From Shouchella hunanensis (GTDB lineage: Bacteria; Bacillota; Bacilli; Bacillales; Bacillaceae_D): 64,000 nucleotides of DNA. Below are positions 10,188-30,775 of this stretch, piece by piece. How positions within the stretch are numbered: position 1 is the stretch's first letter; every line of letters starts with the position of its first letter. Location: positions 1,786,001 to 1,850,000 of the forward strand of contig NZ_CP117834.1 of NCBI RefSeq assembly GCF_028735875.1, in the 5' to 3' direction. Below the pieces are notes generated by a model. It saw only the letters and a list, made by a program, of their open reading frames with translations. It did not search any database and was not told the DNA's origin. Both the position numbers and the translations under genes were made by a program.

Positions 10188-10195
10188 TGAAACGC

Positions 10196-10436
10196 TTAGA
10201 ATGAGAGGAGTAGGAAGCAAACATTGTTAAGAGAGCTGTCGGTTGCTGGGAAGGCAGACAATGAATCTTCTGAAGTCGCTTATGAGTGGCTAAGCTGAAA
10301 GAAAAGTAAGCTTAGACGGATGGTAAGGCCAATCGTTAAAAAAATGAGTTTTGTATACGGTTTATACAAATAAAAAAGAGTGGTACCACGTTAGGAGAAA
10401 CCCCTATCGTCTCTAAAGAGACATAGGGGTTTCTTT
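10196..10436 (+). ncRNA. T-box leader upstream of a GNAT gene
   Basis: Stem I elements AGAGAGC and GGTTGCTGGGAA are present, with a helix CATTGT (10222-10227)/ACAATG (10258-10263). The T-box AGTGGTACCACG lies at about 10380-10391. A terminator hairpin (GAAACCCCTAT and ATAGGGGTTTC, about 10398-10433) with a short T tail follows. The specifier lies inside GAATCTTC at 10263-10270 and could be AUC (Ile) or UCU (Ser). The UGGU bulge pairs with an A discriminator, favouring tRNA-Ile. It would permit expression when that tRNA is uncharged. Confidence 0.88.
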
Positions 10437-25485: not shown

Positions 25486-25587
25486 AAGAGAATCCTCCTT
25501 TTTAAGTGATTATTTTATTTTATCATTTTCACTTATGGAAGTTGATTTTTATGAGGAAATCTTATAAAGTTTAGGTAGATGAGCGTA

Positions 25588-25841
25588 GATGGAGAGTAAG
25601 TACATTGGTGGCGTTACTGAAGAGAGCTAGTGGTTGGTGTGAACTAGTGTAGCGTGCGAATGGAATGGACTTCGGAGCTTCCTTGCTGAACGTTTAGTAG
25701 GCGAGGCGGACGTCTTACCGTTAAAAAAGACAGCGTATCAGAGCCAGACTCTCGTACGTATTGGAGTGCGTTTCAATGATGAAGCGAACAAAGGTGGCAC
25801 CACGGGTTATCCGTCCTTTTTGGATGGATAGCCCTTTTTCT
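25588..25841 (+). ncRNA. T-box leader of trpS, Trp specifier
   Basis: Stem I has GAAGAGAGC and GGTTGGTGTGAAC. The specifier loop carries AGTA on one side and GAATGG on the other; TGG at 25666-25668 reads Trp. The T-box AGGTGGCACCACG (about 25792-25804) has UGGC, which pairs with the G discriminator of tRNA-Trp. The terminator GGGTTATCCGTCC/GGATGGATAGCCC with T tail spans 25804-25840. Uncharged tRNA-Trp would favour read-through into trpS. Confidence 0.93.
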
Positions 25842-28031: not shown

Positions 28032-28469
28032 ATGCGCTTTGTGGCTATGACTGAGGATCAGGCAAAGTGGATTGCGTATCAATGGCAGTACAAGGGAGCT
28101 TATTCCTTTTTTCATGATGAAAAGAATTCTCGGACAACGTCTTTTTTAGAGTTTGGAAAGAAAAACACTTGGCAATACGCGGTTTACCGTGAAAGTGAGA
28201 TCATCGGGTTTATTGGCGTGAAGCGAATAAATGGAATGATTGAAATGGCTCCAGGGTTAAACCCTGAGGAGACTGGTAAGGGTAAGGGGAGAGCATTTGT
28301 TCAGAAATGTGTAGACTTCTTGAAGACGGAAACAAATCCAGAGACAATATGTGTGTTAATGGGTGGTGACAATACAAAGGCAAAGCACGTCTTTGAAGAA
28401 GTTGGATTTGAAGAACAGAGTGAGGAAGACAATAGCATGGTTCGCATGATCTATTCTGTGAACGGCTAA
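28032..28469 (+). CDS. GNAT acetyltransferase
   Basis: A 145-residue protein from ATG 28032 after GGGGGAGAG. It begins MRFVAMTEDQAKWIAYQW and has a core strand GFIGVKR, the acetyl-CoA loop as NPEETGKGKGRAFV, and the late NTKAKHVFEEVGFEE helix. The GNAT fold is clear although the pyrophosphate loop (Q/RxxGxG/A) is varied. The substrate is unknown. It ends at a shared hairpin with the BCCT gene. Confidence 0.85.
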   Translation: MRFVAMTEDQAKWIAYQWQYKGAYSFFHDEKNSRTTSFLEFGKKNTWQYAVYRESEIIGFIGVKRINGMIEMAPGLNPEETGKGKGRAFVQKCVDFLKTETNPETICVLMGGDNTKAKHVFEEVGFEEQSEEDNSMVRMIYSVNG

Positions 28470-28495
28470 ACGATCCTTCACTTATTAAGGTATAT

Positions 28496-28541
28496 AAAAA
28501 ACACGTCCTTCTTTATGTACAAAGGAGGACGTGTTTTTCTG
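28496..28541 (+). terminator. bidirectional terminator between GNAT and BCCT genes
   Basis: ACACGTCCT and AGGACGTGT with inner CTTT/AAAG pairing; A tract on the left and T tract on the right. Confidence 0.85.
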
Positions 28542-28548
28542 TTTATCA

Positions 28549-30447
28549 TTAGATGGTTCTGCGCAAAATTTCTTGTACTGCTTCTTTTTGTTCAATCTCC
28601 ACGAGAATGTATAGATAGTCTCCAGCTTGAATCATTGTACTCCCTGTTGGGGAGAGCATAGAATCCCCACGTTCAATCGCGCTTACGTTTACATGTGCAG
28701 GAAATTTAATCTCTGCAAGTGTTTTTCCGGCAATCCATGAATCGTCAGTTGTTTGAAAATGAACCATTTCTGCTGTTGCTCGACCGTTTGCTAATAACTC
28801 TCGTTTTAATTCCTCACGCCACTCAGACGTTAATTCTTTCTTTAAATCTTCGTATGCTTCTTCTTTCATTGCTTTCTTCAGTTCGTCATCATGGGCATTT
28901 TGCTTTCGACGTTGATCGGTCTTCCAGTCCCGTGTAAGCATTGTCCCCATTGCAATAAGCATAAAGACGAGAATGAAAGCGAATGGAAGCGCAGCTGTGA
29001 GTGCGGCGGTTTGTAGGGCATCGAGTCCACCATCTCCACTTACGAGAAGAACAGAAGCGGTACCGGCAATGAGAACCCCCCATAAGATTTTCAACTTAAA
29101 GCTTGGATTTAACGATCCGTTGGACGTCATAGAGCCAAGGACGAAAGCGGCGGAGTCAGCCGATGTGACAAAGAAAATGCCTACGACGATTACAGCTAGT
29201 ATGCTTGAAATCATGGTTAAAGGAAGCTGATCAAGCAAATAGAATAACGTTAATTCAACTTCGTTTGTTGCTACAGACGCCATATCAAAGACTCCGCTTA
29301 GCTGGATATCAAGGGCAGTCCCTCCAAAGACGGAGAACCAAATAACGGCCATCACCGTTGGAACGAGAAGAACACCAGCAATAAACTCTCGTATCGTACG
29401 GCCTTTTGAAATACGGGCAATAAATAAGCCAACAAATGGAGACCAGGACATATGCCAAGCCCAGAAAAAAATCGTATTTGCCCCTAACCAACCGTCATCG
29501 CTATAAGGATCCATTGAAAAAGACATGGAAACAACGTTTGCGGCATAGCTTCCAAGGGTCGTCACCATACTTTCTAAAAGCGTAATGGTTTGACCAGCGA
29601 ATAAAACAAAAAACATTAATATTCCTGCTAGAACAAGATTTAAATTGGTTAATCGTTTAATGCCTTTATTAATCCCGCGGACAGCTGAGAATAGAAATAA
29701 AAATGTAATAACAGCAATAATACTTAATTGTAATGGAATCCCATTTTCAAGGGGAGATAAAAAGGATATCCCACCTGAGATTTGTAGCGCGCTAATGCCA
29801 AATGTGGTTGCTACACCTGCGCAAGTTGAAATGACAGCTAATAAATCAATTCCCTTTCCCATCCAACCATCTGTTTTGTTTCCAAGCAATGGGTAGAAAG
29901 CAGAACTGATTAGAGCGGGGCGATTTTTTCGAAACTGTACATAAGCGAGGGTTAAACCAACTACTGAGAACGCTCCCCAAGCGTGCAGTCCCCAATGAAA
30001 TACCCCGTAACGAAGACCGACTTCTGCTGCATCTCCACCTTGTTCAGGTAAACTAAACGAATAACCTGGTGGCTGTTCAGCATAATAAAGAATTGGTTCA
30101 GCTACTCCAAAGAATACAAAGCCGACGCCTAATCCAGCTGCAAACAACATTCCGACCCATGAAATAAACGAATGTTCCGGGCGATCATTGTCTTTCCCTA
30201 ACCGTAGTTTTCCGAATGGGGATAAGGCCACAACGAGTCCGAATAAAATGAACAAGCTAGCAATGGTCATATAGAACCAACCGAAGTTTTCAATGATCCA
30301 ATCAAGTGCTGACTCTGCCGTTGCCCCTAAGTGACTTGGACTAATGATTCCCCATAATACAAACAGAACGATAATAATCGTCGAGGAAATTAATACAAAC
30401 GGCGAGGCTTGTTCTTTCAGGCTTTCCTTTTTAGGTGTACTGGCCAT
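28549..30447 (-). CDS. BCCT osmolyte transporter fused to an RCK_C/TrkA_C-like domain
   Basis: A 632-residue membrane protein; ATG 30447 follows AAAGGAG. Residues about 20-505 form the 12-helix BCCT core for betaine, choline or carnitine uptake. The glycine stretch AAGLGVGFVFFGVAEP and the tryptophan box FFWAWHMSWSPFVG are present, but the first Trp of the usual box is Asn and one WW pair is WH. A charged helix (about 510-555, KKAMKEEAYEDLKKEL) follows. The last 65 residues (GKTLAEI, AIERGDSMLSP, AGDYLYILVE) match the C-terminal RCK/TrkA_C domain of potassium channels and antiporters. Such domains bind c-di-AMP in several Firmicutes proteins. The fusion is unusual. Confidence 0.9.
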   Translation of the reverse strand: MASTPKKESLKEQASPFVLISSTIIIVLFVLWGIISPSHLGATAESALDWIIENFGWFYMTIASLFILFGLVVALSPFGKLRLGKDNDRPEHSFISWVGMLFAAGLGVGFVFFGVAEPILYYAEQPPGYSFSLPEQGGDAAEVGLRYGVFHWGLHAWGAFSVVGLTLAYVQFRKNRPALISSAFYPLLGNKTDGWMGKGIDLLAVISTCAGVATTFGISALQISGGISFLSPLENGIPLQLSIIAVITFLFLFSAVRGINKGIKRLTNLNLVLAGILMFFVLFAGQTITLLESMVTTLGSYAANVVSMSFSMDPYSDDGWLGANTIFFWAWHMSWSPFVGLFIARISKGRTIREFIAGVLLVPTVMAVIWFSVFGGTALDIQLSGVFDMASVATNEVELTLFYLLDQLPLTMISSILAVIVVGIFFVTSADSAAFVLGSMTSNGSLNPSFKLKILWGVLIAGTASVLLVSGDGGLDALQTAALTAALPFAFILVFMLIAMGTMLTRDWKTDQRRKQNAHDDELKKAMKEEAYEDLKKELTSEWREELKRELLANGRATAEMVHFQTTDDSWIAGKTLAEIKFPAHVNVSAIERGDSMLSPTGSTMIQAGDYLYILVEIEQKEAVQEILRRTI

Positions 30448-30775
30448 AAGCAACAACTCCTTTAATCTGTATTTACTATGTAAAAAAGATTTGTATTTCC
30501 GATATCCATACCCTAACAGAAGAAAGTTACAACATCAATTTTAAAAATACATACTATTTCGTTTTGTTTTTACAATAAAGAAAGAGGACGTGTCTGGATT
30601 AGGTTGCTTTGTCGTTTTGTCACAAGGTTTACTCTTACAACGTAGTCTATGTAGAAATTGGTATGAATTTGTAGATAAAAATTAGTTAAATGCCCGTTGA
30701 CTTTCCATGTGAAGGGGAGTAATATTCATCTTAGATTTTTTTTACAAACTACTATAGAAAAAGGAGATAGTCATC
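30448..30775. other. 328-base divergent region
   Basis: Lies between the BCCT gene (leftward) and the hydrolase gene (rightward). Apart from the hydrolase promoter at 30697-30725 it is AT-rich with no credible ORF. The BCCT promoter must lie here but was not identified with confidence. Confidence 0.4.
30697..30725 (+). promoter_or_regulatory. sigma-A promoter of the alpha/beta hydrolase gene
   Basis: TTGACT at 30697-30702, 17-base spacer, TAATAT at 30720-30725. Confidence 0.72.

Follow-up and report, generated by a model that had tools for sequence, protein, structure and literature searches.

A lineage-specific BCCT-family transporter carrying a C-terminal RCK_C domain in Shouchella hunanensis and its relatives

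Background

Does Shouchella hunanensis encode a carrier of compatible solutes that ends in a domain known from potassium transport, and if so, what could such a tail do? The question is raised by one open frame in the window, that is, the whole 64,000 nucleotide stretch of contig NZ_CP117834.1 that was analysed. An original prediction, made from the letters alone, had described this frame as a BCCT osmolyte transporter fused to an RCK_C/TrkA_C-like domain and had proposed that the fusion could be gated directly by c-di-AMP. Control of betaine or carnitine uptake by c-di-AMP has been reported, in the accessible part of the source, for the ABC systems BusA and OpuC and for the repressor BusR (PMC10243994). 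Here we describe the architecture, distribution and origin of the fusion, identify the closest kin of its tail and weigh what the tail may do.

Results and discussion

A single open frame combines a BCCT transporter with an RCK_C domain

The features of the locus are the following.

28549 to 30447, minus strand: BCCT-RCK_C fusion gene, 632 aa, ATG start (open frame)
28933 to 30396, minus strand: BCCT transporter domain, residues 18-505 (PF02028, 5.8e-178; BetP, 1.5e-118; Foldseek matches BetP, TmaT and BetT)
28789 to 28932, minus strand: charged C-terminal helix, residues 506-553, BetP-like (AlphaFold helix 475-553; phmmer)
28561 to 28785, minus strand: tail with RCK_C domain (PF02080 at residues 567-628, 1e-14; 3jxo, rmsd 0.8; lead-in homologous with CPA1 antiporters)
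30457 to 30462, minus strand: AAGGAG, ribosome-binding-site-like (sequence read)
28497 to 28538, no strand assigned: 18-pair stem-loop between the convergent ends of the fusion gene and a GNAT gene (consensus scan only)

The gene has the extent that had been predicted: its ATG at 30447 on the minus strand has AAGGAG ahead of it at 30462-30457 and its stop is at 28549. Judged from the orientation of its neighbours, it stands alone. The stem-loop is a terminator-like match of the consensus scan, scored on the plus strand. The window is 99.6% identical over 10.2 kb to Shouchella miscanthi, which the taxonomy files under S. hunanensis.

Pfam profiles place BCCT (PF02028) on residues 18-505, covering profile positions 1-483 of 485 with 592.7 bits against a gathering score of 27, and TrkA_C (PF02080) on residues 567-628 with 54.6 bits (cut-off 27), both above curated cut-offs within one open frame. 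The predicted RCK_C identity of the C terminus is hereby borne out. The same search found RCK_C alone, the fusion protein having no TrkA_N (RCK_N) match.

Between the two domains lies the charged helix. In the AlphaFold model it prolongs the last membrane helix, the whole spanning residues 475-553, and runs straight into the tail. The C-terminal helix of BetP is an osmosensing, regulatory element, and the phmmer match with BetP extends through the charged helix to residue 548, ending before RCK_C. The last 65 residues, which follow the helix, had been predicted to resemble RCK_C and not the osmosensing tail of BetP or OpuD; the helix itself is BetP-like, and the domain has been added to it rather than taking its place.

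The BCCT core and its putative substrate

The solved structures nearest to the BCCT part are those of BetP from Corynebacterium glutamicum (1.5e-118), with which it shares the BCCT fold at 37-40% identity over the aligned chains. The best 50 Foldseek rows consist of BetP, TmaT, BetT and one carnitine transporter, with TM scores (target) of 0.71-0.93, which is a BetP-like fold. In BetP numbering, obtained as the chain offset of the phmmer alignment, the fusion protein keeps W189, W194, W371, W373, W377, T467 and S468, whereas W374 is replaced by H, Y197 by F and M150 by L; we take all of these positions to have functional roles in BetP. The BetP-site residues are identical in 11 fused rows of the alignment, and the 14 unfused rows agree with them apart from an I at M150 in ten.

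The altered tryptophan box, FFWAWHMSW, is real. It had been read as a hint of an unusual substrate, and we considered a substrate change tied to the fusion. This was rejected since H stands at W374 with and without the tail, in all 25 aligned proteins (11 fused, 14 unfused). Against the glycine betaine equivalog NF047988 the protein scores 586.7 bits, below the cut-off of 650. From its sequence, a betaine-class osmolyte is the likely substrate.

Distribution, origin and selection

Among 60 genomes, the host and 59 relatives, the fused form is found in 12, of which one copy begins at a contig end and another has a broken frame in its BCCT part. Ten of the 12 genomes from the host genus have it, as do both genomes from another genus in that family. 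Since two genomes of the host genus lack it, the fusion is not indispensable there. RCK_C is absent from the C-termini of all 18 unfused orthologue loci read (57-65% identity), which to the eye show charged, helix-like stretches of varied length.

Two peptide patterns of the tail, short enough to miss divergent or independent BCCT-RCK_C fusions, yielded ten confirmed loci when 84,980 species genomes were scanned. All ten are fused BCCT genes, the frame being broken in one and another being truncated where its contig ends. They derive from six named Shouchella, Bacillus sp. JCM 19041, Alkalihalobacillus pseudalcaliphilus, A. trypoxylicola and Virgibacillus sp. YIM 98842, several being of the same species as genomes of the 60-genome set. 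A tail search of three partly overlapping Bacillota samples (398 class, 298 order and 398 phylum genomes) gave scores of at least 97 bits for the host genome only, plus three relatives in the order sample (G003, G005 and G015); the next-best scores were 67.3, 74.2 and 62.8 bits, respectively. The 398 Bacilli genomes thus hold one fusion, that of the host. Among the lower-scoring or CPA-sized loci that were fetched, BCCT is found in none of 41, these being 39 CPA1 antiporters, one ClC and one contig-edge fragment. In a plasmid collection 23 records match junction plus tail, none with at least 60% identity and none covering 80% of the query; the annotated ones are TrkA or potassium/proton antiporter.

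The BCCT tree of 25 rows (11 fused, 14 unfused) has the fused proteins as a single clade (100/99), with the Virgibacillus copy as the first branch inside it (98/92), and the fused/unfused label changes once in 100% of 200 bootstrap trees. Hence, the fusion arose once. For the tail, dN/dS was usable in five of nine pairs, dS being saturated in the other four, and amounts to 0.030, 0.054, 0.070, 0.164 and 0.171. Because of these low values we conclude that the tail is under purifying selection. The BCCT-RCK_C fusion is real, conserved and specific to this lineage.

Two of the fused loci, S. clausii AKU0647 (L067, with frames of 201 and 484 aa) and the copy of genome G004 (L014), have the BCCT part split in two frames, either as a disrupted copy or by sequencing error; related species have intact copies.

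Fold and conserved stretches of the tail

Modelled alone, the tail reaches a mean pLDDT of 85. The best PDB match of this model (m727bfe63434f) is the RCK_C domain of TM1088B (3jxo_A; rmsd 0.8 A, TM 0.78/0.82, 37% identity), so that profile and fold comparison both match RCK_C, and neither of the computational outcomes named in advance as contradicting the original prediction, a missing profile match or a different fold, came about. Later matches include MthK and TrkA, and RCK_C structures with bound c-di-AMP (4ys2, 5f29) appear at ranks 42, 45 and 46 with an rmsd of 1.8-2.0. The tail and full-length models are monomer predictions that drew on alignments of these same sequences; they support assignment of the tail to the RCK_C fold class rather than proving it independently.

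The fused tails conserve two stretches, HFQT and H-[VI]-[NS]-[VI]-S, at which the antiporter tails in the alignment are different. Since they are kept in the one group and different in the other, they suggest a putative specific site.

The tail is kin to the RCK_C domain of CPA1 antiporters

Where the tail came from is suggested by its nearest matches. In the search of 398 Bacilli genomes, 28 of the 29 other fetched loci encode a CPA1 antiporter core in frame with the match, the remaining one being a 113-aa contig-edge fragment. Three of these 28 (L034, L035, L049) were scanned, and all three exceed the cut-off of NF003716, 'potassium/proton antiporter'. Fused tails and CPA1 antiporters share a lead-in, G-R/K-x-N/T-A-E-M, ahead of the Pfam domain. 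A profile of eight fused tails matches single sequences at 4e-22 for a CPA1 antiporter of the same family, 3.8e-5 for S. aureus CpaA and 0.07 for B. subtilis KtrA.

A domain tree of 71 rows, which includes five CpaA/YjbQ rows, EcYcgO and SaKtrA and leaves out eight rows of two distant groups, places the 12 fused tails in one clade (99/97) within an unresolved comb with CPA1 rows. KtrA, KhtT, YugO and CpaA group in another part of the tree (89/91), a group that also takes in two CPA1 rows on long branches. With 77 columns and 26 of 68 inner branches open, the deep forks of this tree are poorly resolved, and the position of EcYcgO, on a long branch beside CpaA (90/52), is possibly false. Taken with the profiles, the tree supports a tail that appears nearest to the RCK_C of CPA1 K+/H+ antiporters (YcgO/CvrA type), then to CpaA and least to KtrA.

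The likeness is confined to the tail. With Bacilli homologues of YcgO/CvrA (NF003716) the fused RCK_C shares the lead-in, 30-44% identity and its place behind a membrane transporter, but those proteins have an antiporter membrane part instead of BCCT, and E. coli YcgO, in the part of its description available, carries an extra CorC domain. Accordingly, NF003716 matches the fusion protein by the tail alone (profile positions 395-483 of 499; 43.6 bits, the cut-off being 355) and not by the antiporter membrane domain. A full NF003716 antiporter over cut-off was found in none of 12 fused and 10 of 18 unfused genomes (Fisher p 0.0016), a count that covers 30 of 36 family genomes and in which the fused genomes, sharing one origin, are not independent. 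Its absence from fused genomes would fit capture of the domain followed by loss of the donor.

What the domain does in YcgO offers a comparison. The RCK domain of E. coli YcgO has been proposed to activate the membrane part, and the substitutions L421S and P438Q in it impair function, the latter partially, in the accessible text of PMC11808508, whose authors state that the domain names rest on predictions. Residues 421 and 438 of E. coli CvrA are L and P, and P438 aligns with the proline of an FP pair that is present in 12 of 12 aligned fused tails.

RCK_C is also fused to transporters of something other than K+: the ClC chloride channel EriC carries it at its C terminus, in another transporter family. 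Our searches met RCK_C-like domains in one further ClC channel (L094) and, by inspection, as repeats in five loci with DASS-like transporters (L091, L103-L106).

Gene neighbourhood

In six loci of the S. clausii group (L008, L009, L010, L065, L066, L067), but not in the window, a KtrA-like gene (243-aa ORF) stands head-to-head with the fused BCCT gene. The RCK_C of these KtrA-like proteins reads HLSP where other KtrA read SPxP (three copies aligned). At 28469-28549 of the window the BCCT and GNAT genes are directly adjacent, without the three-ORF block, a TRAP-type transporter by inspection, that separates them in four other Shouchella loci (L064, L066, L067, L068). T-box leaders lie at 10188-10417 and 25577-25821, the latter just before an ORF that on inspection resembles tryptophanyl-tRNA synthetase. 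The gene for one of the two DAC-domain proteins (c-di-AMP cyclase) of the host is located 2.2 kb before the window start (C1:1783494-1783847 of the host genome), near a glmS ribozyme at 1067-1221.

A proposed mechanism and its alternatives

The reading that we favour, and hold to be probable though far from assured, is that of a BetP-like osmolyte importer whose own C-terminal helix is extended by an RCK_C domain of the CPA1 K+/H+ antiporter type. The domain may have been captured from such an antiporter. The RCK_C copies would pair, as RCK_C domains do, and the pair would take up another conformation when a cytosolic ligand binds or ions act on it; this change could then pass along the 48-residue helix, reach the transport core and switch uptake. 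By analogy with YcgO, the tail might act as a built-in activator. Candidate ligands are c-di-AMP, another nucleotide, and K+ or ionic strength. The geometry of pairing is not obvious, because BetP is a trimer in its solved structure (title of 4c7r) whereas the RCK_C domains of BusR form dimers (accessible text of PMC8517857); the domain might connect one trimer with another, or one of its copies might stay unpaired.

That the ligand is c-di-AMP, the osmotic second messenger, which would then be coupled directly to osmolyte uptake and at high levels would close or weaken it, strikes us as less likely than not, and a compatible-solute importer switched through its fused RCK_C by c-di-AMP or another cytosolic nucleotide is put forward equally tentatively. 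What speaks for c-di-AMP is that the host genome encodes two DAC-domain (diadenylate cyclase) proteins and that a short loop is common to the tail and S. aureus CpaA, whose RCK_C was solved with c-di-AMP (4ys2, 5f29, 'with CDA') and shares the fold and P-x-G-x-T as well. The RCK_C proteins KtrA, KhtT, BusR and CpaA bind c-di-AMP in several Firmicutes (PMC5919688, PMC8517857 and PMC11302148, as partially available), and S. aureus can do without c-di-AMP once the betaine transporter OpuD is lost, the accessible part of the 2020 study stating that binding of c-di-AMP to OpuD was not known and that too little OpuD protein had been obtained (PMC7299772). Against this, the tail is by sequence nearest to CPA1 antiporters rather than to the known c-di-AMP binders; for those of the YcgO type the accessible text reports no binding, and the term does not occur in that of the YcgO study (PMC11808508). 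This domain type is also present in E. coli, which has no c-di-AMP pathway according to the available part of PMC8517857, and no DAC match was found among the controls. Compared with the tail, CpaA lies on a separate branch of the domain tree, its profile similarity is weak (3.8e-5, probability 71) and an FPFxGD motif is not common to the two. KtrA, KhtT and BusR belong to the same domain family, but the tail loop is two residues shorter than in KtrA, KhtT and YugO, the long IRxxxG loop is not found, and of the BusR positions, mapped by spacing against B. subtilis KtrA, P181 is G while N157 and H160 vary; the differences at the BusR positions weigh little, as KtrA and KhtT rows vary there too. 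The short loop was in fact dropped as an argument against binding, given that CpaA has it, and little can be made of the KtrA motif's second Pro, which several KhtT rows do not have. Among other relatives, B. anthracis YugO was assayed yet is missing from the binders reported in the accessible text of PMC11302148, and the isolated RCK_C of EriC from group B Streptococcus gave no c-di-AMP signal, its authors allowing for binding by the whole protein (PMC5919688, partial text).

The tail could instead be a ligand-free pairing module that links or stabilises transporter oligomers and switches nothing. Dimerisation of BusR RCK_C without ligand (PMC8517857, in part) and the occurrence of RCK_C without RCK_N in the fusion protein are in keeping with this, while HFQT and H-[VI]-[NS]-[VI]-S, conserved in fused tails and different in antiporter tails, point to a specific site; we regard a ligand-free pairing module as unlikely. 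Pairing of the tail with another RCK protein such as KtrA, which would physically join K+ and osmolyte uptake, appears highly improbable: the head-to-head genes of the S. clausii group speak for it, but the KtrA-like gene is not beside the fusion in the window or in the S. oshimensis, S. xiaoxiensis, two Alkalihalobacillus and Virgibacillus loci, and the RCK_C types of tail and KtrA are distant in the 71-row tree. An artefact in which faulty sequencing or assembly had run two genes together was rejected, with hardly any chance left to it, on account of recurrence in many species, the profile E-value of 1e-14 and selection on the tail. Eleven intact sequences, all different and drawn from three genera, have the same joint; no evidence for an artefact was found, the broken frame of one S. 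clausii assembly lying inside the BCCT part.

Conclusions

The original prediction knew of no described BCCT-RCK_C protein, and none was found in the open-licence full-text literature as partially available, a body outside of which most subscription journals fall. As far as that literature shows, the lineage-specific combination of BCCT with RCK_C is new within a known transporter family.

Bacterial osmotic adjustment has two halves, K+ and compatible solutes, and RCK_C is known on the K+ half. Present in a few related soil bacteria, the fusion suggests that K+ and osmolyte uptake may share a kind of switch. It also points to transfer of a regulatory domain from an ion antiporter to an importer of osmolytes; in the lineage concerned, no full NF003716 antiporter was found in the 12 genomes that carry the fusion. 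In the BCCT transporter described here, a piece of 80 residues is small and separable and belongs to a known family of sensor domains. If the fusion were indeed switched by c-di-AMP, it would link the osmotic second messenger to BCCT uptake within one protein, a link for which S. aureus OpuD gave genetic evidence only, by the accessible text of PMC7299772 (2020).
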